DNA of 64,000 nt from Bryopsis sp. KO-2023 (taxonomy: Eukaryota > Chlorophyta > Ulvophyceae > Bryopsidales > Bryopsidaceae), in contig BSYQ01000001.1 of NCBI GenBank assembly GCA_030272585.1, forward strand, positions 10,555,001 to 10,619,000. Reading direction: 5' to 3'. Positions 3,842 through 54,095 of this stretch are shown here, piece after piece. Both the position numbers and the translations under genes were made by a program. The notes below the pieces were generated by a model. The model had not been told where the DNA came from and ran no database searches. It saw nothing but the letters and a program-made list of their open reading frames with translations. Each line of letters begins with the position of its first letter. Within the stretch, counting starts at the first letter, position 1.

Positions 3842-5231
3842 GGCTTTAACTAAGAATCTTGTATTTCCCGTGATTTCAACGGGTGTACTTTATTTTTGTA
3901 CAATACTGGGATGGGATGGACAATCGCCCCCCTTTTTTTTATAACGGTTTTTATCCCCTCAGTGGGATGCGAGAAGATTTTAACTAGCAAACACAAGCTG
4001 AGAGAGGAAAAAAAGAATTGTTTTGTTTACTTCAAGTTTTTGATGTCAGTCGAAAAGACTGGCTGGAGATCAGTGTGCGGTCTTTATGGCTTGAAAGGCC
4101 GGATATAACTTTTTTGGGAGATATTATTTTGGCAGGGGTACAAACCTACCCTGGTATGTTTTTCTTTCTGCACCCTGCTATCCTTTTTCTCCGAAGAAAA
4201 CAGGTGCACTTGAAATAGAAGAAAAATAAAGAACAAAAAAGTAGAAGCTAAAAGAAAAACAAATTACCATTGCTGAGGTATTTCCGAAAAGCCATATGAA
4301 ACAGAAAAAAAGAACCAGGCATGCAAGTGTGTTTCGACAGTCGATTCACAAGTCTTTTTTTTTTTATAGGTTATTTTGGGTTGAGATCATTTGGGCCAAT
4401 GTCAATAGGTCCTTTTGGCAATATATTATTGAAGTACCTTTTGGGTTCTAATGGGGAGTGGTGGTCAGATATTCTGTTCAAAAAAGGGAATCATTTCATG
4501 TGAGCAAATATTCAGGTGCAAAATGTTTGCGGAAGGAAATTTTGGGTTGTGAAAGTCTTGGAGGATCAAATCTGGGTATGAAACTTGAAACTTGCATGAG
4601 AAGTTTGGGCAGGGGCAGCTGAGCTTTGTCAAAAATCCAGCAAAGAAGTTCTTTTGGAGGGGCAGGAATCTCAGCAAGATTTAGCTCATCAATGAAATTG
4701 TTAATGTTGCGCAGTGTAGAGCTTGCATGCAACTCATAAGAGCCTGTTGAGACTCCACCCCGCTTGAATGAACCAATCTCAGCGAAAAGCCAAAAGGGGA
4801 CCATGAGAATGCCCGAAGTTTATCTGTCAGAAATACACCCAAGGTGTTGATCAAGCTGGATTGACTGGCAGTTAGATCCCTTGTGCTTGTGTTTCGGTCC
4901 TTTTGATTATCCTTCAACTTTTCCTTGAAGCTTTTTTGACAGGGACACTCAACATTGAACAGAAACAAAGAGGATTGCCCAGATGCAATCCGCAAGTTAC
5001 ATGCTTACAGCTGCAGTCGATGATTACTAATATTTGATGGCATAATATAAAGGCACATATTTCCAAAACAATTGGATCGGCTCTACCTAATTAAACCCAG
5101 TAAACCTGCTCCTATATGAAGATCCTAATCATTCAAAAATTCAAACAGTGACTCAAAAAAAAAAAAGAAGAAGAAGAAGAAGAAACAAAGAAAGAAAGAA
5201 AACTATACTTTTAGACATAGAGAGTGGATTT
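3842..5231. other. Convergent intergenic region; no supported gene
   Basis: This lies between the 3' ends of the kinase (+) and NUF2 (-) and holds both 3' untranslated regions. Two overlapping minus-strand open frames at 4496-4995 (about 100 codons each, in different frames) have coding-like composition, but I found no family match or consistent splice signals. An AAG/GAA purine tract occurs near 5160-5200. Confidence 0.4.
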
Positions 5232-12187: not shown

Positions 12188-12402
12188 CCTTGCAAACGTA
12201 CTTGCTTTTGGTGATGCGCTGTGCAGGAGTATGGTTTTCTGGACTTTGATTATCGTTCTTGTGTTCGGATCCGAGTTCCGTAATTTGAACTGCTTTGGGA
12301 CTCGAATTTCGCGCTGAGTTCACAGCGAAGTTCGCACTTCCATTACTGGAAAGTGTGAAACTTAGGAAACGACCCTAATTTGGAAGTGTTACATTATTTT
12401 TG
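12188..12402. promoter_or_regulatory. Shared divergent promoter region (VWA / SDR)
   Basis: Only 215 bases separate the start codons of the minus-strand VWA gene and the plus-strand dehydrogenase. Both core promoters and leaders must lie here unless they overlap the genes. No TATA element is evident. Co-regulation of the pair is possible but not shown by the sequence. Confidence 0.4.
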
Positions 12403-13449
12403 ATGACCTGGTGGGTGCGCATCAACACCCAGAAGGGTGGCATGAACAAATTTTCGACGGAAGGTGGGGTTGGCACCTGGATCTCAGCGACTTTCCACCC
12501 AAACAAACACCCGAGGATCCCGTCGCGTGTGACCGCGGAAGCTGTGGCTAAGGATTGGGATGGCGAAGGGAAGGTTGCGGTGGTCACTGGGGGTTATTCG
12601 GGGATCGGGCTCGAAACCGCCCGGGTTCTGGCGCTGCAAGGGTGCGACGTTGTGATTGCCGGTCGCGACGTAGAGAAAGGGAATGCCGCTGTGGAGGGTA
12701 TCAAGAAGGAGCACAGGCGTGCTCGAGTCCGGTTTTCAAAATTGGATCTTTCCTCGTTGCCTTCCGTGAAGTCGTTCGTTGACAACTTTGGGACGTCTCG
12801 ATCGAACCTGGACATTCTGGTGAACAACGCGGGGGTAGGCGGTTGCCCGTTCACCCTTAACGCCAGCGGTCGGGAGATTCAGTTCGCCACGAACCATGTG
12901 GGCCACTTTTTGTTGACAAATTTGCTGCTGAAACGGCTGCGAGACACTGGCAAGAGGAAGAAACGGCCGGCCAGGGTTATAACCGTCTCCAGTCACGCGC
13001 ATTTCCGTTCCTATCGCGAAGGGATCCGTTTCGGGAAATTGGACTCCCCTTTTGGATACAACAGGATGCAGTCGTACGGACAGAGCAAACTGGCAAATTT
13101 GCTCTTTGCAAGATCATTGGATGAGCGGCTGAAGGCTCGAAAAGACCCAGTCGTTTCTGTGGCAGTCCACCCAGGGGTCATTTTCACGAATCTGTTCAGA
13201 CATATTCCTGGATGGATAGTGCAGCCGCTGGAATTTGTTTCGAAATACATTTCCCTTCCTCATGTGCTGACCATACCTGAAGGGGCGGCTTCTTCTGTTT
13301 ATCTGGCCACAGCTCCGGACTGGAAACTGAAGGGAGGGGAATATTACTACAGTTGTACGATCCAGCCTTCATCAGAACAATCACAAGATCGAGATGCTGG
13401 GGATAAACTCTGGGCTATCAGCGAAAAACTTTGTGAGGGGTACCTCTAG
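12403..13449 (+). CDS. Short-chain dehydrogenase/reductase (retinol dehydrogenase/TIC32-like), intronless
   Basis: A single open frame of 348 codons. The cofactor motif TGGYSGIG is at about residues 62-69, then AGRD (basic, favouring NADP(H)), LDLSS, NNAG near 141, the catalytic Ser in ITVSSHA, and YGQSK near 225 as the Tyr-x3-Lys pair. The segment after it (VAVHPGVIFTNL) is typical of WWOX/retinol dehydrogenase/TIC32-type SDRs, which reduce or oxidise hydrophobic alcohols and ketones with NADP(H). The true substrate cannot be read from sequence. About 55 residues precede the Rossmann fold, possibly a targeting sequence; an alternative start is the in-frame Met at 12442. It has no intron, in contrast to the 4-12 exon genes nearby. 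Confidence 0.88.
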   Translation: MTWWVRINTQKGGMNKFSTEGGVGTWISATFHPNKHPRIPSRVTAEAVAKDWDGEGKVAVVTGGYSGIGLETARVLALQGCDVVIAGRDVEKGNAAVEGIKKEHRRARVRFSKLDLSSLPSVKSFVDNFGTSRSNLDILVNNAGVGGCPFTLNASGREIQFATNHVGHFLLTNLLLKRLRDTGKRKKRPARVITVSSHAHFRSYREGIRFGKLDSPFGYNRMQSYGQSKLANLLFARSLDERLKARKDPVVSVAVHPGVIFTNLFRHIPGWIVQPLEFVSKYISLPHVLTIPEGAASSVYLATAPDWKLKGGEYYYSCTIQPSSEQSQDRDAGDKLWAISEKLCEGYL

Positions 13450-21745: not shown

Positions 21746-23587
21746 CCAGTGGATAAAAACGAACCTTCACAATCTTCTTGTGACCCTATTGTGGCCCGTT
21801 TCCGTGGCGGCGCGCAACAAGAAAGGAAAAAGGAGAGGGAAAGAAAATGGCAACCAGAGCTTGACTAAGATGCTTTTGATTGTTCAACAGCAAACAAGCT
21901 CTAGATGTGAAAAAAATGTTGTGATTGCTCTCTTTGATTTTGCTTGGAAACATTGAGATTTTTTATTGCTATTGAGTTGTTTTGTTATTGTATTTTTTCT
22001 TTGTGGAAGAGAAAAAAATGGGGAGAATAACAATTTTTGATTATGCTTGCATATTGGATGCATTGGAGGCCACACAACTGATGTGTGATAACATTGATTT
22101 CAGGGGACATTTTTTCTTGATTGCTGAACTGATGGGATTTACCATCGATATGAAGTCAGTTAAGAGTGTTGACTGGGGAATGATCAAAAGAGGGAGAAAA
22201 GTGTTTTTGTATTGCTGAGATCCAAAAAATGGGAGAGTGATATATTGTCTGCTGTCAACATTGGTGTAGTTGAAAAGAGTGGGGTCCAGTGAACAAAAAA
22301 CCATGGGAGTTTTAGTCTTTGAAAGAAGCAGTGTGTGAAATGGAAGGAAATACAATATGTAAAATCTATTTTTTTTATGAAGAGACATTGTGTTTTGGAA
22401 ATAACAACTGTGTTACAGTCGACCTTTTCGATAGACTTGAGCGAGATGCAGTAGCAACACAAGGGCTTTCCAAGGATAAGAAAACTCTTCCCTCGCTTTT
22501 GATCGTAGGTTTGAATGTAGTTGGCAAGGCGGTGGTTAGAAAATGATTCTTGAGACGGTCAGCAAATTGGGAAGATTTTCAGTGATTATTGTAAGTCTGG
22601 TCCAGGAAATTGCATGCAGTTGGGTCAAAATTTTACGAATTTGTTGGGGATGAACGGGTAACAACACAAGGAAACCTGGTACTATGAATAAATATTGTAC
22701 TAGAATTCTATCTTTCAAGTTGGGACACGTGATCGCTATTTTTCCCAAAAACAATAAGAAAAAAACCAAACACAGATGTGACAACTAAGCACATCAAAAA
22801 AAAAAGTCTGCAATGCATATGAATGGCTGATTGAAAATGGTTTAGTTCAGAAAATCTTAAGAAGAAGGTAACCAGCTTTTTTTGTTGTAGAAGCTTCAAG
22901 AAAAACAAAACCCAACGGCAAGCGATTCAAACTCTTTCTTTTTAAATGAACGGCGGTTGGGTGGACTATAAACGAAGTGGTCTACAATTCAATATATTTT
23001 GAAATTAAGTAGGCTGGTGTTACAGTGGGGAATGTGTGATGACTGTGGGTTGACAGATTGCATTGGTTGACTCACTGGTGGTAGTTGGGAGGCTACAGTT
23101 ATGCCTCAACCCCCTCTTATACGTTCGTGACATTCGACAGTGTTGTAATATTCTTGGGTCTGAACCTTTGCCCTAACCAATCCGACCGCGCCTAAAACAC
23201 TGGAAAGAAAAATTGAAAATTCTTAACCCGAAAACGACCAAGACATGAGAGCCGTTGGGGGTTGCGTTAGTAACAGAAATCCTCTGCTCGGGTCCAGTCA
23301 CCAATAGAGATGTCAGAATCGACAGACGCGCGCGCGCCTGATTGATCTACACAACTCCAACAACCACCTCCACATGGAGGACTTGCAACCAGAGAACGTC
23401 TTTCAGTTGCACTTCTCGCAGACGGTTGGGATGCGAGATTAGTATTTAACAGTTCAGGTTCAAAGCCTACAGTTCGGGTGGCCCCCGCCGCCGCACCCTC
23501 TCACGTCAACAAACCGTTTCTGACGGTGTGTTTCTGGTGCCATCCAGGGACCCCCGACGATGGAGCCCCAAGACGCTGCCACTAGCT
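21746..23587. other. Intergenic region; GC-rich block from about 23,290
   Basis: The first 1.5 kb is AT-rich with no supported exon. From about 23,290 the base composition shifts to GC-rich, with a CG dinucleotide run near 23,328 and many short palindromic words, leading straight into the ribozyme. This block has no long open frame on either strand. It may be the untranslated end of a non-LTR retroelement. Confidence 0.35.
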
Positions 23588-23601
23588 AGCCCTATAGGGC
23601 T
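23588..23601. repeat. Perfect 14-bp palindrome upstream of the ribozyme
   Basis: AGCCCTATAGGGCT is its own reverse complement and ends 14 bases before the predicted ribozyme cleavage site. As RNA it could form a short hairpin, and as DNA a dyad site. Its link to the ribozyme is positional only. Confidence 0.7.
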
Positions 23602-23615
23602 GCAAAAAGGTGCGT

Positions 23616-23705
23616 GGGAGACTTAGGCCGGGGACCTCCTCGTGGTGTCTCCCGGACAACTGTCCCTGCCAGGTAAAACTGGCGGGGACAGGCTGACACC
23701 CGGTC
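23616..23705 (+). ncRNA. HDV-like self-cleaving ribozyme
   Basis: All parts of the nested double pseudoknot can be drawn. P1 is GGGAGAC (23616-23622) with GTCTCCC (23647-23653). P2 is GGCCGGG (23626-23632) with CCCGGTC (23699-23705), seven pairs including one G-U. P3 is ACC (23634-23636) with GGT (23644-23646). L3 is TCCTCGT, whose CC can form P1.1 with GG at 23654-23655. P4 is a 13-bp hairpin (23660-23672 with 23679-23691) with loop GTAAAA and one G-U pair. The J4/2 strand GCTGACA (23692-23698) supplies the candidate catalytic C at 23693 in a CTGA context. Cleavage is expected just before G23616. Known ribozymes of this fold often sit at the 5' end of non-LTR retrotransposons, but no reverse transcriptase follows here. 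Confidence 0.85.
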
Positions 23706-23904
23706 ATTCTTAACTCGACTCTCGTCTTGTTGTTTTCCTAGTGTTGAAGTGTTTTCTTTTTGTGTGTTTCCATGCTTCTTACGGGTTGGGCCTTGGGCGG
23801 GTTGTGTTGTTTTCGCACCGGAGACGTGTGTGCCTCTGGCGTTTTTTGTCGGCGCTACACGAGCACAATTATTCGAACGCACGCGAAGCAAGGTATCTTT
23901 TCGC

Positions 23905-24312
23905 ATGTCTTCCACGCACAGGCTCTCTTTCGTCGGTTCGAGGGAACTGAAGTACACTTGTAAGTTGTTGGCAACTGTTGAGGATGGTGGGCTGGCGAAG
24001 GTGGGAACATCTCCTGCACCTCAGTTGAACAGGACAGTGGTCGTGCTTTTTCTGAAAAGAAGAAGTTGTGAGTTTGATTTGAATACAACAGGCTGCCCAG
24101 GCACCCAGGGCAGTCAGTATCTCAGGTGGCAGATGCTGCTGTTCTGACAGTTTTCCTGAAGTCACACCCTAGTTCTTGCAAGAAAAGTGTATTTGCGTTG
24201 TTTGCGATATTTATTGCTTGTAGTTGTTGGTCTGCGCAGGAAGAACGTTGTCCTAGGTGCTTTCAAAAAGCTACAAAAAAACCAAAAAAACCTTCCGACG
24301 CAGACAACCTGA
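23905..24312 (+). CDS. Tentative 53-residue spliced frame downstream of the ribozyme
   Basis: A start codon at 23905 leads to a strong donor (GTAAGT) after 23959. Joining 23905-23959, 24092-24125 and 24240-24312 keeps one frame of 53 residues ending KKLQKNQKNLPTQTT. The second donor (GTGGCA) is only moderate, and the product matches nothing I know. It begins about 200 bases after the ribozyme, so if real its transcript could carry the ribozyme in its leader. Treat it as a weak hypothesis. Confidence 0.18.
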
Positions 24313-25046
24313 TTCCTTGTTGGGTTGATAAATGATAGATTCGGATGATGAAGGTCGAACGCGATCGCATCACCAGATCCCTTCCGTCTGACCAGAAACG
24401 TGGTCGTCGCGTTTCCGAAGAGGGAAAAATGAATCATGGAACGTGTTGGGAAATCAAGGAAAGTCAACACACAACAGAACGTATGACAACGGAGTTCGAG
24501 GTATGAAGTTGAACTAGATGGTGTAGATTGTTTGGACAAGAATGCACCTCAACAAAGTTTGCGAAAACTTTTCGATCTGGAGTGACCAAGTTTCCATTTG
24601 TTTGAGTTGCGTGGAGGGAAGTCAGGGTCGACTCGATAAGGTAGGATGGGGAAAATCAGTGTTTCTGTTCCCACGTGACTGGCCGATGTAGCGATCATTT
24701 GAAAGGTAACCGCTGAAATATTGCGCAGTAGGAAAACCAAAGATGGTGGCGTGAGAACTGACCTGGCAATTTTTTTTCTCTGAAATTCCAAACAGCCAAA
24801 GGCCATCCTCCTTCGAAAAATCAATTCCAAATCTCTCTCTCTTGTTGTGTATTGTCGTCCGTGATTTCCCAACACTTGTATATATACATTCCAGAAAACA
24901 CCAATGAAAAAAATATTTTCAAGACCCATCAAAAGGTTAAAGAAAAAAAACGAGAACCAAGTGCGTGCTCTTACAGAATGTGAAACAAACCGAAAGAAAG
25001 AGTCGGAAGAAAAAACATCATGAGAAAACAAAACACAGTGCGTGTG
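24313..25046. other. Spacer downstream of ispF
   Basis: This contains the ispF 3' untranslated region. A 160-codon minus-strand frame (24549-25031) directly follows ispF but lacks any motif and is rich in Phe, as translated T runs would be. I do not call it. Confidence 0.4.
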
Positions 25047-27771
25047 TCACTCTTTTATGAGCATCACGACAGTGTGACATGCAATGCTCCTCTCCTCCCC
25101 AATGCTGTCAACTTTTTCGTGCGTCTTGGCCTGAAAAACAAGAGAGAGGTGAATTGTGCTAGGTGAAATTTTCCATCCAGATCATTACTGTTTTGGTACT
25201 AAGCGCCAATTTAACACAATTGAAAAACGAAAACGGACTAAAATCGGAATATGGAGATTTCCTCGTTTTTTTTTTTTTTTTTTTTTTTTTTTTCTGGGAA
25301 AACTAAGAGGAATCAAACTAACAGGGTGCAACTTCATATATTATACCATCTTGAATTCGTGGGTTGCCTGGTTAGATGAGAATCATATTCTATTTTTGTT
25401 TTCATTTGCCCCACTCTTTTTTATGATCCAAAATTCAGACTACTGTACCTTCACATTGACAACGGAAGGATGGGCTTCCAAAAGATCGCATAAATTTTTT
25501 CGAATATTCTCCTGGATTAGAAAAAAAAAATGCCTTTTCAGTTGCGATATAAAAATTCATCACAGAGAAAAAAACAAAAATAAAACCTCTCCATTGTAAA
25601 ATATCAAAACATGGCTTGAACTGAGCATCTCTTCAGTTGTGTCAAGAACATTTCCAACACTCCGAAAAACTATGAAAGAAACAACCCTACGAACAAATAA
25701 CACAGAGGGAATTTCCATTCGCAGAAAACCCTCTCTGCCACCCCCCACCCCCAAAAAAAGATTTTTTTTTTTGAAAGAAACTTGAATTTCACCTTGTGAG
25801 GAGAGAGCTTGGGTTTTTGCGCGATCAGTGTGCAATCCAAATTGCCAATTGAATAGCCTCTTTCCCTCATCAACCGGAACTGTATCAATTGAAAAGCAAG
25901 TCAAAACGACTAAATCTGAGTCTGTCATCGAGTCAGGTTACCACATAATTCAAGAATCTGGAAAATATAAGTTGAAAAAAAATGAAATTGTTTGGTGAAA
26001 CTGAAATATTGCCTCAGTCTCCGTGTTATGTCTGACAGAGGAATATACGCAACTTACCGCTTCTCTGATAAAAATGTCAGAAGAGGCTCCCTTCCATTTG
26101 GGGTCAGTGTCTGGAAAGAGCTGCCCTACCAATCAAAAAAAAGATAAAAAAAAAGATAAATCTTAAAACAAAGATGTTATTTTTTGAAAATGAGTGTGAA
26201 TACAAGACCTCTCCTTTCCAGTTTCAAGCACAAGAACAGCATCATTTGCTGGTCAATATTCCCATGAAAATACTTACCTATGTCAGGCAAACTCAGGGCT
26301 CCCAAAATAGCATCAACCACACAATGCAAAAGAACATCCCCTGCACCACAATGTCATCACAGCATGTATTCATCCTTTTGTCCACCCCCCCCCCCAAAAA
26401 AAAATTCCCCTATTTTAACTTTCTTCGATCGATCCTGAAGTGGAAAATTTATCTGGTGTTGTGATTGCTCGAATCTTTCTGATATAGTGCTGTCTGCAAG
26501 CCCTTCAGTGTTTGTTTCTAGATGGAACCTCCAATATTCAAGAAATATTCCTTTCGACCCAGATACATCTGTACAACACTGCTCCAACATTTCTTACCCC
26601 CCAAAAAAACAACCACCAGATCTGATGGGTTAATATTTCTGCATCTCGTGTTTTGCTAAAAATACTCATTGATCGCATATTCGTTTCAAAAGAAAATCAA
26701 GGTAGATAGCTGTCCAGAAAGAACTGCTAAACTACTTGGTATGACGCTCTCGAATGTTTCTTCAGTTTTCAAGTGAAAAAAAATAACTTCATGTGGATAT
26801 CTATCCTACCATCTGAATGAGCCTCGCAGCCTTTGGTGTGGGGAATATTGATGCCACCGATAATCAAAGGATAACCTTCTGCCAATCTATGAAGATCAAA
26901 GCCATGACCGACCCTGAATGGAGGCTCCACAATTTTTGCATTGTCGCCTGCCCAATATCAGCTTTTTTTTTTAATAAATCAACTCCGAATGAAAACAATA
27001 AGTTCTTTGATCTATTAACAAATTTCGAATGTCTGACCATTGGATTTTCTACATGTCTTGAAATCAATGGGAAAACAGATTGCCAAAAATTTCACCAATG
27101 TTTTGGGTTCTTCAAATGTAAATATATTTCCAGAATGAAAAGAAATAAAAATATCTAAATTTGTACCATTGAGCTTCCCGTCTGTCTGAGGTTGGAAAAA
27201 TATACAGGCACTCATACATTTTTCAAACATGGGGCCCAAAGTTGATTTAAAAAGAAATAAATCCATCACAAAGAAAACTTACCTGCTGAAGCTTCCTCTG
27301 TTGCAACACTAGCAGCATGACACCTGCATCCAGAATCAGAAATTCATGCATCCAAAATTAATGACCATCTTGAAGTTTTAATCTAGAATCTGAATGTTCA
27401 AAGAATTTGCAGAAAAATCTCATAAGGACAACCCATCAAGTCACAATCCTGCTGAAACAGGGAGATTTTGTGTATTTTGCATGGAGGTTTTAGGTGTGTT
27501 TTTTTCTTACCTAGGTGGACATCGACGCACAATCTCTTTAAATGAGCCTTTCGAGAAGGTGCCTGAATTCTATGCAGGGCAGCCAAATGAGTAAGCGACG
27601 TTCCTGCACACACACCCTCCCCAGCAGAAGCAAAACGGTGTTTCTTATGAGGTCGAAGTATTGAAGCACCAACAGAGCGTCCACCTTTTGTACGCGGGCT
27701 ACGCGAGGCTGGGAGGAGCCTGTCAAAACGCGACTGTGGACCTTCAGGTGGGGTGCGTGCGAGTGCAGCAT
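25047..27771 (-). CDS. ispF: 2-C-methyl-D-erythritol 2,4-cyclodiphosphate synthase, 10 exons
   Basis: This is the fifth enzyme of the plastid MEP isoprenoid pathway; it cyclises CDP-ME 2-phosphate to MEcPP with release of CMP. Secure exons are 27323-27283, 27181-27167, 26947-26810, 26340-26278, 26125-26058, 25879-25793, 25511-25449 and 25130-25047. The proposed 5' exons, 27771-27616 and 27569-27511, are uncertain because they need a 46-base intron. The total would be 257 residues. The mature domain starts [12 protein letters not shown] (zinc Asp and His) and continues [29 protein letters not shown] (third zinc His), [26 protein letters not shown] and [20 protein letters not shown]. These are all family signatures and it ends at the usual place. 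Exon 27181-27167 is only 15 bases. The 90-odd N-terminal residues should include plastid targeting, and their exact form is unresolved. Confidence 0.9.
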
Positions 27772-28355
27772 TTTTCCAACAGAGTGTGAGACGGTTCGCG
27801 CGCGGTCGACGATCAACACATCTTGCCACCCAAATCGACACACGATGAGAAGGTACGAGAACAAAATGGATCGTGATGGGCGTTACACTTTTCACACTAA
27901 ACGCCCGCGTTTGTAGGACACTCAAGCGTTATTACTTGGTGGCGGCAGGCATGCAGTGTGTAAAGACAGGATGCACGGTGCAAGAGGTGATTTTTCTTGC
28001 AGTTTTGGATTGAGTTGGGCTAGATATATAAACCCTCCTTGCAGAGTATTTCTTCTCGAGCCATCGGTTGACTAAGGGGAGCGACAGCTTGTAAAATTTT
28101 CCTTGAATTCAGCTTCCCCCAGAACCCACCAAGACAAAAAAAGTCCACAATTTTCGACCACCATGATGCCACAAATCTATCCTTGCTTTACATTCCCCCA
28201 TTGATCAAAATCTCAACTCAGTCCAAATCATAAAGATACACAAATTCCCACACCCCGATTTTCCCGATCTCTGCTTTGAGAATCGACCTTTCTATATTAG
28301 AAGTCTGCTAAATATAGACAGAAGATAAATAAGACATCGATTTCGCAGGTTGATA
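27772..28355. promoter_or_regulatory. ispF upstream region and gamma-adaptin 3' end
   Basis: A TATA-like stretch (TATATA, about 28,024-28,030) lies roughly 250 bases before the proposed ispF start in the correct orientation. A very short upstream frame precedes the proposed start codon. The remainder is the 3' untranslated region of the gamma-adaptin gene, also on the minus strand. Confidence 0.3.
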
Positions 28356-31300
28356 TTATCGCAACCCGGCAGGGAAGTTTTTCACTTCGCACATTTCTGT
28401 GATGGGGGAGCCCGCCACTGTCGCTGAAATTTTCATCCGCATAGCAATTGGTTTCTGAGCACCACAATGCAACACACAGCTTAGAATTATATCACCCTTA
28501 AATAAATAAAACAAATAAATTGAAGTAAATTTCATGGAGATCAGATTTCAGCTGGAAACTACAATTAAGGATGTCACTGGAAAGCTGGTTGGACTGAATA
28601 CCTGTTGGGCATATTGTGTGTTGGTGACATGGATCTTCTGAATGATGGACCCTTGACCGGAGGGAGGCAAGGTCGTCCCAGCAGCAGGTTCCAGTCTCAA
28701 TTGCATGAACTTAGGCACCGCTGCTTGGAGAGAAAAGTTTTCCACCGGGGTTGATGTGGTGTTTATGTACGTGGCGGTGATATCGGTGGCCTCTGGGGTT
28801 CCGCTGGGCTTTGCAAAATCGAAAGAAACTCTGAATCCATGGCCTTCATATGCTACGATAGAAGGAATGGCCGGACCTGCAGAAGCCGTCGTCGATGGAC
28901 CCATATCCAACGGTGAATCCTGTGTATTCAAACGAAAAAAAAACAACCAAAAGTTGGAAAAGGCATGCAATGGATGTCTCAAGCTGCTATACACAGCACA
29001 GCTGTTTTTTAATTCAGACTGGGAGATTCAGCTGCGAAGGAAAAAAGTACTGGGCCAGAATTCCAGATTCTTCTGCACAATGCTGCAATTCAAATTTTGA
29101 CTTGGCTTTGCTCCCCTGAAAAATCACATAGGATGAAAGAAAAGCATGTGAGCAACAAAGAAAACACCTGGATTCCTCCATCCCCAAGGAGATCCATGAG
29201 GTCGACCGCAGCAGATGTTGGGGGGGTGGCTAAGGCTGCCACCGTCCCTGTGGGTTCTGGTGCAAGCAAGTCATCCAAAACGTTTGTAGTGGGAATAGCC
29301 GCCGCTTCACCCAAAATATCATCCATCCCCAACAGATCCTGAAAAAAACAACCGCACTCTTTGAATCACCAATTCTGAATCGAAGAAAACTATGCCGAGT
29401 TTGCTGGAGAATGTGCAATATCAGCCCAAGAAGAGGTTAAAGAAAAATAAATAAATGAACTTGTGTTCGTTCTCAAACTGAATCACAGCAAACTTGGAAA
29501 GAAAAGCTCACCGGTTGATCCAGACCAACCGCAGTTCCATTAGCCACGCCACCAACAGGGGTGGCTGGCATCGCAGCGACATCGATGCCAAGATTCTGAG
29601 CATATTCTTTCTCGTCCAGGGCTGGCATGTGCTCCAGGAGCTGTGGTCGAATCTGATCATCAACAAGAAAAGTGCAGATTCATCAAAACCATCCTCGTTG
29701 CATCGCAGGGCACTACAAATATTTTTTTTGTATGCTTCAGTCACACTTCGAGCATTTCCAAGCACTGACCCCACTACTTTTACCTAAGAAGATATAGATT
29801 ATGCGACCTTTTCCAAAAGCCCCACAAGTGTGCATCTAGATAATTAGCAAATAAAAAGGACCAAACTTTCAGCACACTCACCTCATCGTAGTTGAATATC
29901 TTGCTGTATTCGCAAGATCTTTGTTGAACCTCCAGATGAGCACTGCAGGTGAATCCCGCCACCAACACTTTTATCCGTTGTTGCTGGCTGGGGAGCTTCG
30001 CGGATAATTTCATGAGTGCTGTGAGAACGTACTGCTTGGGGCTGTCTTTTTCCTTCAAAAACTTCTCCAAAATATCCACTATGCCCGATTCTGATACCTC
30101 GAGAGGGGTTTCGCCATCTTTCAGCGGACCCCCTGCTCCAGCCAGCAACATTTCGCCATACTCTCCAATACACCATGTCCTGCACAACACACATTTCAAA
30201 CATCAAGCTATCCAAGAGCAGTTTATCGAAAACAATCAAAACACCCTGTTTTTAGATGTGCCACCTGACTCCAAACAACGAAACCACATCTAATTTTGCA
30301 CAAAGCAAGGCAAAACCAAGAACGATTCGAAACAAGATATGCATGCCGCAGGTTCCTTGCAGTTTCTATGGCCAAAAAAAAAATTAAAAATTTCACCAGA
30401 CCATTAACACCGGTTAGGGTTGATAATAATTTAATAAAAAAGTTGGAAATGCTTTTTACATATTTGCAGTTTCTCATGGGATCGTGGCAGCATCTTACCC
30501 GACCGAAATGAGGGAGCTTGAAGTGGCTTTGCTTTCTTGGAGGGCTCTGTACATAGACCGCACCGTGAATCCAAACAGATCCGGAGCATTCGTTATCAGC
30601 ACAATCAAGGCACAGCACACTTCCTCTTTCACGTATTTCCCTGCTTGCAGCATTACCTGTCCAGCCGGTACGACTATATTAAATTAAAAAGCGATGTGGG
30701 CAGGCAAAATAACAGCGACCTCAACAGTTTTCAACACAAAGCTCTCTGATCTGGGTGCTTGGGGGGGGAAAATGCGGCTTCCTCTCTGGAACCTCGGAAA
30801 ACTACCAGGTTTGAGAAAACCCCACCCACCTCGATCATGCTCTCAATATGCCACCGTTTTTCAGGTGAAAACCGCTGAATCAGCGTGCAAATTTTCGCTG
30901 TCAAATCTGGTTTGAACTCCGCATCACTGACAGTCAGGTACTCCAACAGCTCATTGGTCAGATTCTTGATGTTCGTCTCATTGACCAGAGAATACACCAG
31001 CTCCAGAGCCCGCTTCCTTATCGACACATCAGCATCTTTCACACATTCAACGACAGTAGCCCTGTGTCTTTGAACGGCTTGGGCATCCACACTCACAACC
31101 TTGGCCAGAGTGTTCAAAGCAACATAGCGGATGTTATTATCTCGGTTGGCCAGGAATCGCCCCAAAATGTTGACTGCCAAAACGCGGAGCCCTGCAATGC
31201 TCTCCACACCCATGATCGTTTGGACGCATTCGTACAGAATGCTATTTCCAGCGTTCCGACTTGGTTCAGTGTTTGTCGCCACTTGTGCGAGGATGTCTGA

Positions 31301-33341
31301 CATTTGATCGCTGGCTTCTGGGCTCCCTTTGCCTGTTTTGAGGAAAACACCGCACAAATGCAAATCATTTCCTTTCATTATGAACCAGGTTTCACCCAGT
31401 GGATCTTGCCGTGGATGGAGTGCCAAGTTAAGGTAAGCCAGCTTTTCCCCTCGCCTGACATAGCTTCTGGAAACCTTACCCAATAACCTCAACAATCTGA
31501 GGATCTTGACTTGGAGAAAGGGGTCGTTGATGCCCCCAACATCGTGATCGGGCGAAAATCCACTGACGGTCAAACTTTTCAAAATTTTGCAAAGTTGATT
31601 GACGTGAGCCCTGTAGTGAATGGTGGCCCTTTCCTCCACGTCGCTGATTTCCAGCATCAAAGTGACCCCAGCCAATATCACTCCATGGTTTCGGTCGTTC
31701 AGCAGATTAGATGCCAATTCCTGGAAAGCCTCCACAAGCTCTGGAACCTTTTTGACAATCCTACCCACAACAGCACAGAAACCCATTATTTTTGGATTTT
31801 TTGGAGGCCTCCTGCTTCACAGGTGAATACATGTATCAAGGAACTGATTGGGAAAAAGGGAAAAAAAAGGAGGAGGGATGAATGATAACCCCTGTACCCA
31901 TGAACTTACGAATGCTACACTACCTACACAACGTTTTGGTGCAAAATGATAATCAAGAATGAATGGGATTTCACCTGATCGCACACAGTGCTGCTTTCTT
32001 TCGAATATATCCGTTGCTATTTTTCAGCAATCGCTCGACATCAGGAGCAAGATCCCTGGCCATTTCTACACCAAACAAAAAAAATTGTCTCTGAAACCCT
32101 AGACGAAACTCAAGAAAGCAGTCATGGCAACAGAACAGTTTTCTGATTTTTCCAGTAACAGGTCTGATCAGAAAAATTACTGGGCAAATATTGTACACAA
32201 CATTGAATCCCCCCCTTCAAACAATGAGAGAATATACTGGATGCTCCTTCAATAAAAAAAAACTTTGTTCCAAGATCGATGTCTATTTATAGAGTTTGGG
32301 TGATTGGTTACCTGCTGAGCAAATATTTCCCAAAGCAGCTAAGGCAAGACCCACAATGTAGTGATTTCGGCTGTTCAGATCATTCTTCAGGGAATTGGTC
32401 ACCAGCATCAAAACGTCTTGCCTTTCATCCAGCAAGATCATCAGCCCGAGGTAACCTACTCTCTGGCAAAAAAAAATAAAAAAAAATAAAAAAAATTAAA
32501 GATTTTCAGATACATTTTGTCTACTTCCTATTTTCCACTTTGGGATTGCTTCGTTTCCATTCGGTGCAACTTTCAGGGTTTCATTTTCATTTTCACTTTT
32601 TTTTGGGGGGGGGGTGTTAAAAAATTGACCTGTGCCATATATCTTACTAACAACTATTCTCGTGCAGTTATCTAACCCCCTCGAAAATAAAAATAAAAAA
32701 ACAATGCGTGTAGCTTGGACATGAAAGCACACTTCAACTGTTTTACACCAAACTTGATATTTTTTTTTTTTTCTGAGGTTGTCCACCCAAGATTTATTTT
32801 ATTTTTTTCCTGGAAACGTTTACATTTGGTATTCTTTGTAAAACAAGACAAGGTGCCAACCTTTTCAGGAAAACTGTTTGCAGCAACCAGCTTGAGGCAC
32901 TCCATTTGCCCGAAGTGGGTGGGATAACCCATCATATGAATGTACATTAACTTCGCAACATTTCTGTGTTGATGGGACGAGTCTTGTTTTCTGAACGCCT
33001 CCCTCAACGCGGCACTCTCTTTGGCCACGACATTTCGTTCCTCTGCGGCAGTTTTGGCTTGACGAACCGATCGGATCAGCTCTCTGCGTCGGGTGTTCAT
33101 AGAAAAAAAAACAACTTCCTTGCCACAGAATCAAGCCAAAAACCATGAAAAATAACACATACTCTATGTTCCGAAGCATGCACTTCATTCTTTTCCTAGA
33201 GGTGTGGTTTCAGCAGGCTTTATGTATTCTTTTTAAGAATTCCACACTGGTTGCCAAGGCGTCGGATCTCAAGAGCGAACGTCAAACAGTTGCGGTTTCG
33301 AGGATTGATCGGAAGACGACTTACCTTAGCCTCACCGTCAT
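28356..33341 (-). CDS. AP1G: AP-1 clathrin adaptor complex, gamma-adaptin, 12 exons
   Basis: Exons are 33341-33325, 33083-32861, 32462-32312, 32065-31975, 31760-31480, 31332-30830, 30656-30499, 30179-29882, 29652-29512, 29338-29168, 28919-28602 and 28454-28356. They encode 816 residues, against about 820 in animals. The N-terminal trunk shows hallmark gamma segments: [66 protein letters not shown] and [12 protein letters not shown] Pro/Ala/Gly hinge follows (about 600-690, with [10 protein letters not shown]). The gamma-ear follows and ends NFPAGLR. AP-1 sorts clathrin cargo at the trans-Golgi and endosomes with beta, mu and sigma partners. The first coding exon is only 17 bases. The 147-base intron 31479-31333 is a multiple of three and free of in-frame stops. 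The gene is head-to-head with the gene at 33668. Confidence 0.93.
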
Positions 33342-33667
33342 TTCCTCAACCAGAATGTCGTCTGCGGAAGGCGGGCTGTTTTGGTTGCGTTTTTTGTTGG
33401 GGGCGGGGGGTGGAGTCTGTCGCTCTCGCCAGCGGCCAACCGACAAAAAAAGCTACTCGAAACCTTGGACAATCGATTTGCCAATTCTCTCTTGCTGCCA
33501 GTACAAACTGGCACTACAATGTCCAGAAACTGCACAAAAGTCCATGATTCAGAAAATCAGAAAACACACATCCCGTCCACAGGAAGCAAAAACACGCGCG
33601 CGCGTTTGCACTCCCGAAACCTGAAATTGGAGAACGACACGGCGTGATCGATATTTTTTGAAAGGGA
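33342..33667. promoter_or_regulatory. Shared divergent promoter region (gamma-adaptin / unknown gene)
   Basis: The two start codons are 326 bases apart on opposite strands. A CG-alternating stretch (near 33,595-33,604) lies inside it. No TATA element is seen on either strand. Confidence 0.4.
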
Positions 33668-36006
33668 ATGCCGTCCAAAGCGAAATGGTTTGCCCCCGAC
33701 GAAAGGTGTCTTGGTGGGGCACACGAAATCGAGAGCGAGTATCAAAACATGCACAAGAAAATCACCGAAGCGAAGCCACGGGTGAGTCCAAGGTCTCGCA
33801 GCGATCAGGGAAGCGTTGTTTGCCTTTATTCTCCTTGGAAAAGGCGTTTAAGCGTCACCAAAGACGTCGGATAGTATCGTAAACATGGCAATTTGGCGTG
33901 TTTTTCTTCTACTGACAGTAACGCAACGTGTTCAGGATGCTGGTGTTGGGTTTTTTTCCAGGTTGCCGACAACGGACGTAGGCGAAAGTCTGATGCTTCA
34001 TCCCGCCCTATGACTGCACGGTCTTACCAGGTGAAGTTGCAAACGATGCAGGCACTAGCTTTCGTACTTTTTTTTTTTTTGGAAGAGGAAAGGCAAGATC
34101 AATTTTTGTGAACCTATCCCCAAGTGACCCCATCTGTAGCCTCCCTCCTTGTTTCAATGCCAGTCTATAAAAAGCAATCGACTCATGACTTATGCTGCTG
34201 CGTAGAGCAGGTCCAGTTACAGGGATGCTCCCCCCACGAGCATGGCAGACAGACTGAGCATGAACAGGTAGGCCGAAATTAATTGCACTTCCTTCATTTG
34301 GACTGCCTGCCACTATTTCAAAGTTCCGTTGCTAAACCTGCCACCTGGATTAAGGATCTGGGGAACGTTTTCCCCTTAATTTTGTTCTGTTTGATCTTTT
34401 TTCGACAGATTATAATAATCACCATTCATGCCTGCATGGTATTGTTATTAAAATTTAAAGTAGTTCTGGAACAGTATCTATCATTTGAATAATTTTTCTT
34501 TGTGTGTTTTTCTTTTTGCGTTTTTCAATTTTTTTTTTTCCTGTTAGAGCTCGGAGGCGTGCCACCACAGATATGACATTTGCTAATCACTACAATAATC
34601 TTTACCATTTGCAACGAAGAATCGAGGAGCAAGATTCGCAAACAGAGAGAAAAAAGAACCCCTATGACGTCGACATTTACCCCACGCACAAAAACTCAAC
34701 CAGGAAATCCATGGTTTGCCAAGATGTAGCAACATGGTTGCCGAGAGCTGACAGGTAATCCCTCATCGAAGGGATTCAAAAATTGCTCAACACACTGATT
34801 ACTGAATATGAAGTATATGTAGTATATTCGTGTGGAGATTCTTGATTTCACCAGAACAGGGAAATTAATTCAATTTTTCTTGCCTCAACCTGGAGTTTTT
34901 CACAGCAACTTTACTTATACCGAAAATTTAAAATTTAGGCCTTCCTTTGTTTAGCAAGCCAGCTGAGTCTATAGAAGCTTTGAGTTAAATGCTCAATTCC
35001 AGCAGCAGAATGAAAGAAAAAAAAAACAATGCTTTCTCCAACCTCTATCCAGGGATCGACCATCAACCTCACCATCGAAGTCGACTGAATACTATGAGGA
35101 AATCCCAGGTGATGAAATTGCCCCCCTCCCCCGTCCCTTTTAAAAAAATAAAAAAATAAAACTGCAAACAACAATTCATTAAAAAATAAAACCGGGTGAG
35201 TACATCCTGGATCTAGAATAAACATTTTGTCGGTTTCTTCGCCTTGGAATGAAATGAACTGAAAGAATCGCTCGCAAGAAAGCTGCAATAAGAAAGTTGT
35301 GCCGAAGTTGTGTTCACTATCATGAGTGAATTCGTGATTCGTTCAATGCATTTAAGGAAATTCATAACATCAGCTTTCGGACAAACTGCCTTAGTCTCAG
35401 AATTCAATCAAGGTTTTCCTATTCAGCAGGAGAAGGATATTCTGAACAGGAGTTTGACATCATTGACTCGCCCTGCACTTTTCTGAATCGACGAGAACAG
35501 AAGGCAAAAACTCAACGGTAAAACAGAAAAATCAAAGCACCAATAACGAAAGTGAACTGTTCGTCCCAGACAAAGTTTAACAAGAAACGATTACGAAACA
35601 CTATCACTCTTTGTGGAAATTTTGACATATAGTATGTTCAAGGAATTTCAATTCTAGACCAGTCAGTATAGTTTGCACATGTTGGGTTGTATTCGAGGTG
35701 TCGCCAAAAAATAAGGTTCCTATTGGTCCAAACAGATCATGCAGTTCTTGTAATTCAACGAGCAATTCAAAAAAGAAGGACATGAAATAGAGAATATATC
35801 ACTTCATAATTTTTTCCAGGGAAAATATCAGTTATGAACAATTCCGAGACACGATGCTCAAGGAAATCATCGACAGAAGAATGTACGAAGAAGAAAAAAT
35901 AAAAGGGCTGTTCAAAGACTACTTGAGGTCCAACCCACCGGAACACCGCAGAGCGATCTCAAGGGCAATCGAAGACCTCAAACAAGAGCTCGATGTTGAA
36001 TTTTGA
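33668..36006 (+). CDS. Unrecognised basic protein of 261 residues, 7 exons
   Basis: Exons are 33668-33781, 33962-34030, 34206-34267, 34548-34754, 35053-35108, 35427-35517 and 35820-36006. Every junction is GT-AG and in phase, which is strong evidence that this is a real gene. I do not recognise the family. The protein is hydrophilic with no signal peptide or membrane segment. The first 90 residues are basic and Ser-rich (GRRRKSDASSRPMTARSY), followed by a helical stretch (NHYNNLYHLQRRIEEQDSQT) and a short acidic linker. The C-terminal 62 residues are predicted helical (EQFRDTMLKEIIDRRMYEEE, then a segment ending LKQELDVEF). The overall look is of a cytoskeletal, centriolar or ciliary accessory protein, but that is only an impression. 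The last exon is the part most likely to be conserved. Confidence 0.75.
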
Positions 36007-36354
36007 ATGCCATCCAGCCAACAAGACTTCCCCAAAACTTTTTTGCCTTTGCTTTCTTCAAGGCTAGAAATGAAAGAAATGAGAAAGGGGGGAGGGGCCA
36101 GAAAAAAAAAGAGGGAGTGGGGGTATATTGAGATTTAGGTGTAGGGTGTTATTGTGTTTGGTGGCGTGGATGCCTTGAAATGACCTGATATAGAAGAATG
36201 TAAGGAGGATTGTTTTTTTGGAGCGTGGATCTGGGCATGGTATCATCGGCAGCGAAAATGCACTGAGAGTTTTATCACATTTGATTCTTTTCGCTCCTTC
36301 GCACATCTATCAAGGTCTTCCTTGAAAGAGATGTACGTCATCCGTTTGGCGGTC
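36007..36354. other. 3' flank of the 261-residue gene
   Basis: This is the 3' untranslated region and spacer before the MITE-like element. There is no gene here, only the antisense frames expected by chance. Confidence 0.4.
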
Positions 36355-36380
36355 AAAAAAAAGGGCTGGCAATTAATTTT

Positions 36381-36452
36381 GCCGCCGAATGCTTAATTAT
36401 GGCGCCGAATGCTGAATTTTGCCGCCGAATGCTGAATTTTGCCGCCGACCGA
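36381..36452. repeat. Left subterminal 20-bp tandem repeats of the MITE-like element
   Basis: Three and a half units of GCCGCCGAATGCTGAATTTT with a few substitutions (36381-36400, 36401-36420, 36421-36440 and a partial copy). They are the reverse complement of the units at the right end. Confidence 0.85.
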
Positions 36453-36461
36453 CTGGCAGCC

Positions 36462-36770
36462 GCCGGTCTACTTCGCGCTTGTTTAGCCCACTCGCTTGGC
36501 GCGCGCCGGTCGCGCTAACCCTAAACCCTAAACCCAACCCCCCCTTTTTTTACGCTGTTTGAACATAAGCTTTCTGAGGGGAGAGAAAGCCCTAAACACT
36601 TGGGATTTCCTCGGCGTGATCCGGGTTCCCATTTTTGGAGTCGACGGCCACGGCTCCAGAGTCGACGGCCTCGCCGGCGCGCCGGTCTACTTCGCGCTTG
36701 TTTAGCCCACTCGCTTGGCGCGCGCTGGTCGCGCTAACCCTAAACCCTAAACCCAACCCCCCTTTTTTTT
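36462..36770. repeat. Two direct 90-bp copies containing telomere-like CCCTAAA repeats
   Basis: The blocks at 36462-36552 and 36681-36770 are near identical. Each starts GCCGGTCTACTTCGCGCTTG and ends in CCCTAAACCCTAAACCC followed by C and T runs. CCCTAAA is the plant/alga-type telomere unit, but with only two units per copy these are not a telomere. Confidence 0.85.
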
Positions 36771-36850
36771 GGTCTGACATACATACGTTGGTCGCCTGTC
36801 GACCGACATCGCGACATCGCGTCTCCGAAGGGACGTCTGACAGTCGGGCG

Positions 36851-36944
36851 GCGGCAGAATTCAGCATTCGGCGGCAGAATTCAGCATTCGGCGGCAGAAT
36901 TCAGCATTCGGCGGCAAAATTCAGCATTTGGCGGTAAAATTAAG
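36851..36944. repeat. Right subterminal 20-bp tandem repeats of the MITE-like element
   Basis: Four units of GCGGCAGAATTCAGCATTCG starting at 36851, 36871, 36891 and 36911, then a partial decayed copy. They are inverted relative to the left array and could be transposase binding sites. Confidence 0.85.
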
Positions 36945-36975
36945 TTTTTGCCAAAAAAAAGAAACAGGCCCTGGT

Positions 36976-37566
36976 TGTAACCCCAAACCACGTCGCCTCG
37001 ACCAATTTTGTCACCTCCAGGGCTAGAGTGATATCAGGGGAGGGAATGCTGCTTGAGGCAGTCCCAGACGGATTACGTAGGGCTAGCAGTCACCCCGGGA
37101 CAGTTCTGCCATGGCAGTTCCGCCACAGTTTAGGGGTAGCAATTTGGCTACAGCTGTGACTAGGTTGGACAGTCCTAGGAAGTGGTGCTGTATGAATAGA
37201 CTAGGGATACTTTTGAAGGATCAGATGGGTTTGATAGCTTGGGTTGTCTACTCGGGGATTGGGATCATGGACGATCAATGGGACGGGGATGAGTCAGTCT
37301 AGGGCCTATTTAAGTGGCTGATCTTAGGGTATTGGAGGGACTTCTGACTTTTGCTTCTTCTGTTGTATTCTTTGGGTTCGAGGTCTTTGTAAGATCTTTG
37401 GAAAGAGTGTGGTCTCGTGTTTACCCATTTCTTGTGAGAGGGTGCCCAAGTGCTTCGTTTAAAGGGGCTGTCCCCACTTCTTCCGTTCCATTTCTGCAAA
37501 GAACGACTCTGCAACCGTTACTCCCGCTGCAGGGGTGACCCCAGCGGTCAAGGCGACGCAATTTGT
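36976..37566 (+). repeat. 5' LTR of element A
   Basis: It starts TGTAACC right after the target duplication and ends ATTTGT next to the primer site. A TATA-like CTATTTAAG occurs near 37,308, so the RNA start is probably shortly after. Unlike the 3' end of the element, it is not followed by GGTTACA. Confidence 0.92.
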
Positions 37567-37578
37567 TGGTTTCGGAGC
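37567..37578 (+). other. Primer binding site of element A
   Basis: TGGTTTCGGAGC begins with the TGG that pairs with tRNA CCA. The same 12 bases follow the 5' LTR of B and C and occur in D, so all four use the same primer tRNA, whose 3' end would read GCTCCGAAACCA. Confidence 0.85.
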
Positions 37579-40500
37579 CCAGGCGCGCACACTTTTCAGC
37601 TGTGCTGCAGCAGACGTGCACTACGGCTCTGGCAGACGTTATACGAGGGCAGTCTGGACGAGCAAGGCCTGAGAGTAGAAAAAGAAGCGGAGGAAGCTCT
37701 TGCAAGAGTGAAGAGAAGGACCCACAGGGGTGGATACGTTTCAAAAGGGTACAAGGTCGAGCTTGGGTCGCTCACAAGGGTAAAGAGAAGGCGAAAAAGC
37801 TTTGTGGGTTTCGGGATCTTGTGGGATCTTAACCTAAGGTTAGGTCAGAACTGCTGTTGGGTCGCTTTTGTCTTGTTTGGGCTGCAGCAAGGTCGAGAAC
37901 AAATACAAGAAAGAGTGACAAACTGCATAAGGTGGAAAAAGAAGCAAGGGCAGTACTTATCCGAGGTTTGGAGGAGAACAGAGGGTAAAAGAGAAGGATC
38001 ACGACCAGAAGGGAGACTTGCCACTCAGATCTGTGGCGGCGCTGAAGAAAAAGAAGATCTTGACGAAAAAGTGAACGAGGAAGAAGAGCCAAACGAGGAA
38101 GAAAGCCTTGGTCGTGCAGAAGGAGTGGACGTTGAGGTTTCTGAGGCTGTTGGTGCTTTTTCTGAGGCTGGTCTTGTTGACGACGAAGGGGTGTTGAGGA
38201 AAGACTTTCTTGGCGGCTGGGATAACGAGGAAGTGAACGAGGTTGACGAGGAAGAGGTTGTGATGGTCGAGAGTGTTCGTGAAGAACGTGAAGCAAGACA
38301 AGGAGACAGAGCTGCTGGAGACGAGGTTACGAGGGCAGAGGTAGACGACGAAGTGGTTGCTGTCGTTAAAGAAGAAGAAGAGCAAGCAAGTGTTGACCCC
38401 ACTGGAAGGGAGGTACAAGAAGGAAACCTCGTTGGCGTTACTGACCAAGGAGAAGCCGAGGTTGTCCAAGAGGAGGAAGAAGTGCTTGCGGAAGAAGTAA
38501 AAGAAGAAGACGAAGCAAGACGAGTGACCAAAGAAGAGGAGGAAGCCTTTGTTGAGCCAGAAGTTGTGGTTAAGGAAGAAGTCAAACAAGAAGAGGAAGA
38601 AGAGAGCAGTGTTGCTGCAGGGAACGGAGGAAATGGAGGCGCTACCAACGAGCCCTCGAGTTCCAGTTCCGACGAGGACAAACCTGAAGGGGAAAGAGAC
38701 AAGAGGGAGACATCCTCTAGTTCCGAGGAAGAGCCTGTGCCCCCAGTACATCCACCACTGAACCCATTTGCCTTTGCTGCCAGTCTCCCCCAGATTCCTC
38801 CAATTGTGCCACCTGGTCCAGTTGTTCCATCCGTTCCACCAAGACCTCCTGTTCCACCACCAGTTTGTCCACCGACTCCAGGCAGTGGCGGCGCCATGAT
38901 ACATCCAGCAGAAGGACCTCCTAATCGGTTGACTAACAGTCATTTACCCGCATTTACGGGTGCAGAGGCAGAAGATGTGGCCACCAGGTTACGTTCCTAT
39001 GGGATCCTCGCTGAAGGCTCTGGCTGGAACGTACCCCCAGCAGTGCAGCCACACGAAGACGAGAGGATAGAGAGACTGGTCCGCTATACAACCAGGGAGG
39101 CTCGGTCATGGGTTGACAATTGGATATCCAGACATCCAGCCCTTGTGGAAGGAGTGCCAAACCCATTGAGGACGTGGCAGAAGTTGCAAACGGACATGCT
39201 GGCCTGGTTTGGAATTGCCCCAGCAACACTAGTGGCCCATACCTTGGAACAAAGCCGGAAATGTGATGAACCAGAGGACGAGTGTGCATCTGCGCCATCC
39301 CAGGAGCAAGTGGAAGCGGACAGGGTACCAGGCAGTCCAACCGTGGCGAATGAGACATTACATCGATCGATCAAGGATGGAGCTCAGGGGGAGTTGACAC
39401 CTATACTTCATGCACCCACGGAGGATACTTTGGAAGGAGTCAGTGCCAGAGCCGGACAAGTTGAGAAGAGACAAGTGGACCCCAGTTCCACCCAGAAGGA
39501 AGTGACGGTCCCAGCAACCGAACTGATGGGAGAACTGCAGGAGCATGCAGCATTGGAGCCTGTTTTGGCAGAAGTGGGCGTTATGGATCGGAGAGTAAAT
39601 GGGCAAATTGACAGCCTAAGGAAGGAAATGCGTGATCACAAAATTGTGACGGATTCAAGACTTCGAGGAGTGGAGCAGCAAGTGAGAATATCTGGGCGGC
39701 AGTATAGCGAACTCAGGAGGATGATCTCCGCCTTGACAGAAAGGGTAGCAGATATGCGACAATCGGAAGAACCCGAGCTGGCAGGGGTGAGCCATGGCAT
39801 TACTGGAGACACTGGAGTGGATCGAATACCTACCAATGGGGAAAGAGGCCGGGGAAACCACAGAGGAAGTGAATGGAGGAGAAGGAGTGGACGGATAAAC
39901 ATGAGCGAAGTCACGTGTTGGCATTGCTTACGCCTTGGACATTACAGAAGAAATTGTCCCAACCGGGTGCAGAGCTTCCAAGCAGAACTTGACGATGAGT
40001 TTATTATGGATTTCGAGCAGACCGACCCAGTGACAGCAGCCATGGAGGAACCAGAGGAAGTTCTGGCATCAATCTTGTACTCTGCTATGGATGTCGATAA
40101 CGGAGCAATGGACAGTGTCGAAGGAAGCAATGGAGGGACTCCGATGGATACCAGTCCAATACCCTCAGATCCGCAACCAACCACTGCAGAAGATGTTGAA
40201 ATGGAGGAACCGAAAGAAGAGCCAGACCCTGAAACAAAGAAAGAGCCAAAAGAGATTCCAAAGCAACTGCCTGAACTAGAAGATGTGCCGAAACCAGAGG
40301 ATGTGCCGAAGCCAGAAGATGTGCCACAAGGATCCAAACCAGTTGTGATGCCGCTAGTGATGCATAGACCGATGCAAGTACCATCGCCGAGAAATACCAT
40401 GGCAAAGAAAAAGAAGATGGTCAAGAAATCAACAATGGAGCCAAAGAAGAAGCGCATGTTTACTAAGGCGGAGGCCAAGAAGTTTGTGGAAGGACTGACG

Positions 40501-52542: not shown

Positions 52543-52583
52543 GGCCAACCAAGCGACAGCTGCTCTGTCGATACCTCGGAGAC

Positions 52584-53596: not shown

Positions 53597-54083
53597 TGTG
53601 ACCTGCATTTTAAGGGTCTGTGGCAGGAGAAGGGTCCAGCTCCTCTTGCAGTACTGGGAAGGACGTTCAGAAGTCCTGCTTATGTTATCAGAAACAGTGA
53701 AACTTAGGAAACAGTACTCAGTGTTTCTCACTGAGTACCTCCAATTTGTAAGGGTTGGTAATAGTTAATAAAGGGTAGTTGGGTGAAGCTAGGGTATTAG
53801 AAATGGGTAGCTACGGGGTAGCTACTTTGTACAAATGAGTAGCTAAGAAGTGGCTCTTTTACCCTATAAGAGAAGGGGGTTTTTTATTCTTCCTTGTAAC
53901 CACTTTTTGTTCATGTTCGACTTGTGCCTCAGTCTCCACGCTTTTGGTCGTCCAAAGCTCTTGTATTCCGACCTCTCACCGAGCTCTCCTAGTTGAAACG
54001 ATAAAGGGTATAAGGTTTTCGATTTGCAGCGTTTCCTGCTAAGAAACACCTGACCCATCGCCTGCAAGGCGCACCCAAAGGAT
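53597..54083 (+). repeat. 5' LTR of element C
   Basis: It starts TGTGACC. It includes a CTATAAGA TATA-like site near 53,864 and, near its right edge, the hairpin CGCCT-GCA-AGGCG followed by CACCC. It ends AAAGGAT against the primer site. Confidence 0.92.
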
Positions 54084-54095
54084 TGGTTTCGGAGC
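54084..54095 (+). other. Primer binding site of element C
   Basis: TGGTTTCGGAGC directly after the 5' LTR, identical to those of A, B and D although the coding part of C is only distantly related. Confidence 0.85.

Follow-up and report, generated by a model that had tools for sequence, protein, structure and literature searches.

A 22-copy family of HDV-like ribozymes, 18 of them abutting a 5'-splice-site-like octamer, in the genome of Bryopsis sp. KO-2023

An HDV-like ribozyme lies on the forward strand of the window, by which we mean the whole 64,000-nucleotide stretch analysed here (C1:10555001-10619000 of the 91-Mb, 28-contig genome of Bryopsis sp. KO-2023). Protein searches match the green lineage, with land plants scoring best and Ostreobium giving the highest identity of a named match (51%). 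The motif is confirmed to be real in form, as all five helices and the cytosine of J4/2 are in place, and it belongs to a family of 22 copies, 18 of which stand behind a signal resembling a 5' splice site. Judging from these sequences, we favour, at about an even chance, the reading that the ribozyme belongs to a host transcription unit, where it would cleave itself immediately after a putative 5' splice site and thereby compete with splicing. Since 22 copies are conserved and 18 of them follow the splice-like signal, a host RNA-processing device appears likelier than the dead end of a mobile element. The earlier note on this DNA had left open a dead LINE end or a domesticated host ribozyme in a transcript leader; the latter is nearer to our conclusion.

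Table 1. Coordinates of the window ribozyme, its surroundings and related loci
Feature	Position	Strand	Remarks
HDV-like ribozyme, family A1	23616..23705	+	all helices; RF00094 37.5 bits; 22-copy family; paired substitutions
P1, strands 23616-23622 / 23647-23653	23616..23653	+	encloses P3
P3	23634-23636 / 23644-23646	+	
P1.1	C23638, C23639 / G23654, G23655	+	
P2 (pseudoknot), strands 23626-23632 / 23699-23705	within 23626..23705	+	one G-U
Unpaired nucleotide	G23633	+	separates P2 from P3
P4, strands 23660-23672 / 23679-23691	23660..23691	+	13 bp, one G-U
J4/2	3' of P4	+	contains candidate catalytic C23693
5'-splice-site-like octamer AG|GTGCGT	23608..23615	+	abuts predicted cleavage site
TATA-like box TATTTAA	23443..23449	+	173 nt before G1; similar box in 4/4 A1 copies
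Possible acceptor TTTTCCTAG, window copy only	23733..23741	+	sequence; absent from C1 sister
TTTTCGCACC, counterpart of the acceptor-like motif TTTTCGCAG	23810..23819	+	TTTTCGCAG kept by the other three A1 copies
Unit common to window and sister at C1:7588004	23265..24405	+	blocks of 83-87% identity
A1 members	window copy; C1:7588004; C11:1830825; C1:4555981		
Inverted family-A pairs	L035 about 5690-6275; L036 about 4400-5000; L032/L033 = C7:4451198-4451787		
Family-B domain	L014:1781-1950	-	
Family-B domain	L015:1051-1269; L017:1151-1360; L020:1148-1362		

The coordinates and helices in Table 1 bear out the complete fold of P1, P2, P3, P1.1 and P4 that the earlier note had described, and its candidate catalytic residue is indeed a cytosine, which is kept in all 22 copies. 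Cleavage is predicted between 23615 and 23616. The Rfam model RF00094 aligns with the window ribozyme from end to end (37.5 bits, E 0.00064 in a 501-base search), so that the covariance-model check proposed earlier gave the match, but at a score under the curated gathering score of 50, which is a threshold of curation and not a structural feature. A scan of the whole window with Rfam at gathering level listed nothing, and genome-wide no copy attains this score, the best of the 12 matches listed having 41.1 bits. The predicted energy of the 90-base ribozyme is 4.05 standard deviations below that of dinucleotide shuffles. Its minimum-energy fold contains P1 and P4, and P2 and P3 are missing from it because the folding program cannot draw pseudoknots.

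DNA searches, Rfam searches and a core pattern, all applied to the same genome, yielded the 22 copies on 9 contigs, possibly an undercount, as more diverged copies could escape these searches. The core pattern alone matched the whole genome 22 times, compared with once for its reversed control. The copies fall into subfamilies A1 (n = 4), A2 (n = 14, including three inverted pairs on C7) and B (n = 4), the first two constituting family A with 18 members. P2, P3 and P1.1 are retained throughout the 22 copies, as is the J4/2 cytosine; the P4 segment folds with 11-20 pairs in each of them, and P1 is perfect in 21, a single mismatch being present only in L030. At the first position of P1, 18 copies have a G-U pair and 4 a G-C pair. 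Core identity amounts to 0.95 in A1 (4 copies) and 0.86 in A2 (11 of the 14 copies), whereas the flanks of the same copies are far less similar, the upstream side having 0.51 (A1) and 0.56 (A2) and the downstream side 0.47 (A1) and 0.39 (A2). The ribozyme is therefore the best-kept part of the units, and its retention in every copy despite flank identities of 0.39-0.56 suggests selection.

Paired substitutions in homologous copies, which had been set as a test of the motif, were found. Family A was aligned with 15 of its 18 members, omitting a C8 copy found later and two identical rows. This alignment has 99.7% of its cells paired and contains 17 double-change cells against 5.5 in shuffles, none of 500 shuffles reaching as high a count and slid controls giving 0-4. 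Two coarser measures on this alignment do not rise above the shuffles: further pair types number 7, below the shuffles (8.8), and the 4 pairs with a double change are equalled by 60 of 500 shuffles. With 19 of the 22 copies aligned, 20 double-change cells were counted against 4.4 after shuffling (0/500 as high), and for the same two coarser measures 378 and 128 of 500 shuffles gave values at least as high. The earlier statement that such a motif is very unlikely by chance overstates the case when the motif is taken by itself, since a loose descriptor of the whole pseudoknot, which matches the window once, also matched in 2 of 60 simulated 64-kb windows. That result, together with the RF00094 score under the gathering score, would be compatible with a chance fold without function. 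Chance is nevertheless excluded through the family, because there are 22 copies (1 with the reversed control) with the full helix set in all and with paired substitutions; on these sequence comparisons, a chance fold is refuted as far as structure is concerned, and we assign it a negligible probability.

The sequence before the cleavage site is conserved as well. All 18 family-A copies carry, immediately 5' of the site, an octamer of the form AG|GTRMGT (in one case AG|GCGCGT). It reads AGGTGCGT in 15 copies, and the remaining three variants, AGGCGCGT, AGGTACGT and AGGTAAGT, differ by changes of the sort tolerated at a 5' splice site. To our knowledge, HDV ribozymes have no need for such an upstream sequence. 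As a yardstick, we used four gaps of a phosphorylase gene in this genome: for three of them the best-scoring introns start with CAG|GTGAGT, CAG|GTGAAA and CAG|GTGAAT, while in the fourth gap GAA|GTCACT and CAG|GTACTC score equally, a comparison that supports the assignment weakly because the scoring favours the consensus. Further upstream, a TATA-like box is located 161-205 nt from the cleavage site in 16 of the 18 family-A copies. ATAAAA occurs 161-182 nt before G1 in 12 of the 14 A2 copies (7 of 350 same-size control blocks), and TAYTTA 166-205 nt before G1 in all four A1 copies (2 of 100 control blocks). Two A2 copies, L006 and L059, lack ATAAAA and have weaker variants only, which speaks against a reading in which splicing and cleavage compete. 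We also considered a conserved structure in the family-A leader and rejected it, as RNAalifold gave -4.4 kcal/mol with one pair showing a double change. The members of the three inverted pairs point away from a common centre that is flanked by TATA-like boxes, one per side, an arrangement resembling bidirectional promoters.

Downstream of the ribozyme, half of the family-A copies (9 of 18, with 1.3 expected) carry an acceptor-like YGCAG at a distance of 150-230 nt from G1; the motif was picked after seeing the sequences, and five of the nine copies represent only two divergent pairs and one arm of a third. The absence of this acceptor from the other nine copies argues against competition with splicing. 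In the window copy the motif is altered to TTTTCGCACC, and thus another site, for example TTTTCCTAG ending at 23741, would be needed if splicing occurs. The extent of downstream homology past the ribozyme differs among copies: it fades at about 110 nt in several A2 pairs; L008/L030 and L025/L033, which are closer pairs, retain it over some 290-540 nt, and the window and its C1 sister over about 700 nt. Relative to the window, an insert of about 4.2 kb splits the sister unit, and a ferredoxin-like frame lies behind that unit; the insert corresponds to L047:652-4836, and none of the top six frames listed for L047 lies inside it. A short ATG frame near 23904 was examined as a protein-coding second exon. 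It has 85% DNA identity to the C1 sister, and we do not take it as coding because the sister has an early stop. The other copies lie next to unrelated genes, which occur in both orientations (in sense, a ubiquitin-conjugating enzyme and ferredoxin; in antisense, a phosphorylase, a DEAD helicase and alanyl-tRNA synthetase), and the lack of a common downstream gene is a further point against the reading that we favour. The same holds for the altered acceptor motif of the window copy, the RF00094 score below gathering level, the two coarser covariation measures and the leader, in which no conserved fold was found.

According to that reading, a TATA-driven RNA of roughly 145 nt, with the start assumed 30 nt past the box, would extend to the putative 5' splice site AG|GTGCGT. 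The ribozyme could then fold on the nascent RNA as soon as P2 is able to form, some 90 nt beyond the splice site, and its cut between 23615 and 23616 would fall between the putative intron positions +6 and +7. Presumably, cleavage would proceed except where U1 binding or splicing prevents it. Should splicing win, the ribozyme would be removed with the intron; should cleavage win, the transcript would terminate directly after the still intact 5' splice site, with loss of the downstream part. We infer that the outcome may thus decide whether anything downstream gets made, which would give the putative competition a regulatory meaning. As a precedent, one study (PMC10919898) reports that fast synthetic ribozymes placed in introns lead to unspliced mRNA, and that the half-life of the Cpeb3 ribozyme matches the time of transcription to the next exon.

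Family B has a different upstream side. Each of its four copies is preceded, at a distance of 145-238 nt, by a domain of 155-204 nt, and all four matches to the pattern of the 5' end of this domain belong to family-B ribozyme copies. The structure obtained with RNAalifold has 47 pairs, with 94.1% of the cells paired and 19 pairs showing double changes (four sequences only; shuffles 8.5, slid versions 2-6), a covariation that is favoured because the structure was derived from the same alignment. Searching for a known RNA class, we obtained from Rfam only HDV models and weak matches far below the gathering scores. On this basis, the domain is best described as an unclassified, covarying structured RNA domain. 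A polypyrimidine-rich stretch and an acceptor-like TAG|G directly precede the family-B ribozymes, and in the two long pairwise alignments homology stops 3-5 nt past the ribozyme. By eye, the conserved CCAACY of the domain could pair with the P1 strand GGGTTG of the ribozyme, a possible switch. A viral origin of family B was also considered, as six viral-contig loci have an exact match over 18 positions; these are treated as chance because they lack extended similarity. The family-A core pattern had no match in the viral contigs.

The most serious alternative is that the ribozyme forms the 3' end of short stand-alone noncoding RNAs, in which case AGGTGCGT would be a functional tail instead of a splice site. 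On this view, family A would specify a TATA-driven RNA of about 145 nt, and family B a structured RNA of about 400-500 nt. We regard this as possible but rather unlikely. It would account for the units lying in either orientation to their neighbours with no gene in common downstream, for the two family-B alignments that stop so soon past the ribozyme, and for the restriction of the family-B 5' pattern to ribozyme copies; moreover, theta ribozymes next to phage tRNAs offer a precedent for RNA-end processing of the HDV type (PMC10879173). The lack of a conserved fold in the family-A leader, the adherence of the three octamer variants to the rules of 5' splice sites and the enrichment of acceptor-like motifs downstream speak against it. 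That HDV-type ribozymes serve a eukaryote as standard devices for the 3' processing of two host RNA families, A and B, is a proposal that we consider doubtful and put forward tentatively. If it is true, family-A cleavage would set free leaders with an intact 5' splice site at their 3' end (AAG|GUGCGU>p), which could serve as unit-silencing dead ends or as minimal trans-splicing donors, and family B would represent a new class of structured RNA, with a 3' end cut by its own ribozyme just behind a polypyrimidine-AG.

Dispersal over 9 contigs in 22 copies, three inverted C7 pairs with arms 88-94% identical and the mostly unrelated flanks beyond the unit would suit a mobile element of unknown kind, either SINE-like or palindromic with two outward-facing arms, carrying its own promoter and ribozyme. 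We judge such an element improbable: no coding capacity was found in the unit, no target-site duplication was seen by eye at the one pair inspected, the C7 copies share further flank as in a segmental duplication, and the conservation of the core within diverged flanks points to selection. Less probable still is a relic of an R2/RTE/L1Tc-type LINE 5' end. HDV-type ribozymes are known in such LINEs (PMC4035085, PMC3774820), and some family-A pairs do share 290-700 nt downstream of the ribozyme. However, R2 and L1Tc ribozymes open the element, and therefore unconserved target DNA should precede them, whereas the upstream side is conserved in both families, in family A with the TATA-like box and the octamer. 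It is mainly for this reason that we reject a LINE end, and with it the dead LINE end suggested before. Upstream identity also exceeds downstream identity in A2, the two values being close in A1, and family-B homology ends with the ribozyme. Behind the window copy, all ten plus-strand frames of at least 110 aa from 23677 to 37400 were scanned with Pfam without a match. Among the 14 minus-strand frames of this interval, the 10 scanned gave adaptin domains only.

The fold itself is a known one, and it is the position behind a splice-site-like octamer that is unusual. The copies share with the HDV-like ribozymes of RF00094 the P1-P2-P3-P1.1-P4 pseudoknot, an L3 loop with CTCCTCG, the cytosine in J4/2 and, in 18 of 22 copies, a G-U first pair of P1, but differ from them in scoring under the gathering threshold and in their placement. 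With the R2, RTE and L1Tc (Pr77) LINE ribozymes they have in common the ribozyme class and the dispersal of genomic copies; those ribozymes open their element, while in the present family conservation extends to the 5' side of the cleavage site, and a reverse transcriptase was not found downstream of the window copy. The mammalian CPEB3 ribozyme is likewise HDV-like and intronic (the intron being putative here), and its cleavage is able to compete with splicing, yet it resides in the second intron of one gene, whereas here there are 18 copies that begin with nucleotide +7 of a putative intron. In gut phages, theta ribozymes are also HDV-like and have their cleavage site at the edge of another RNA, but they have a minimal fold and often lie beside tRNAs; here, ARAGORN found no tRNA in any of the 20 loci scanned. 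The fungal HDV variants (PMC5640933) resemble the present copies in being multi-copy and eukaryotic with varied neighbours and in having an extra nucleotide between P2 and P3 (G23633 here). They typically differ in the first pair, which is C-G where our copies have G-U or G-C, and in P4, which contains a loop E where ours folds as a plain helix.

No report of HDV-like ribozymes at 5' splice sites was found in the literature searched, which consisted mostly of papers outside subscription. Host roles of HDV-like ribozymes beyond mobile elements are few, the cases encountered in this literature being Cpeb3 (PMC10919898) and the tRNA-linked theta ribozymes of phages (PMC10879173). A 22-copy family at splice-site-like sequences, whose core is kept while the flanks diverge and whose second branch lies beside a new structured RNA, would make a host role of genomic self-cleaving ribozymes directly testable in one organism.

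The window contains several other features. A TIC32-like short-chain dehydrogenase is encoded at 12400-13449, and an adaptin gene with several minus-strand exons (28551-33130(-)) follows on the downstream side of the ribozyme unit, the two being convergent. The interval 36461-36770 is taken up by two 91-nt repeats containing CCCTAAA telomere-type units, between long inverted-repeat arms and just before the first of two stretches of LTR-type retrotransposon frames, which we take to be of the Gypsy type. These stretches, 37450-43643 and 48622-62550, both encode aspartyl protease, RT and RNase H, and the second also has gag and an integrase core.
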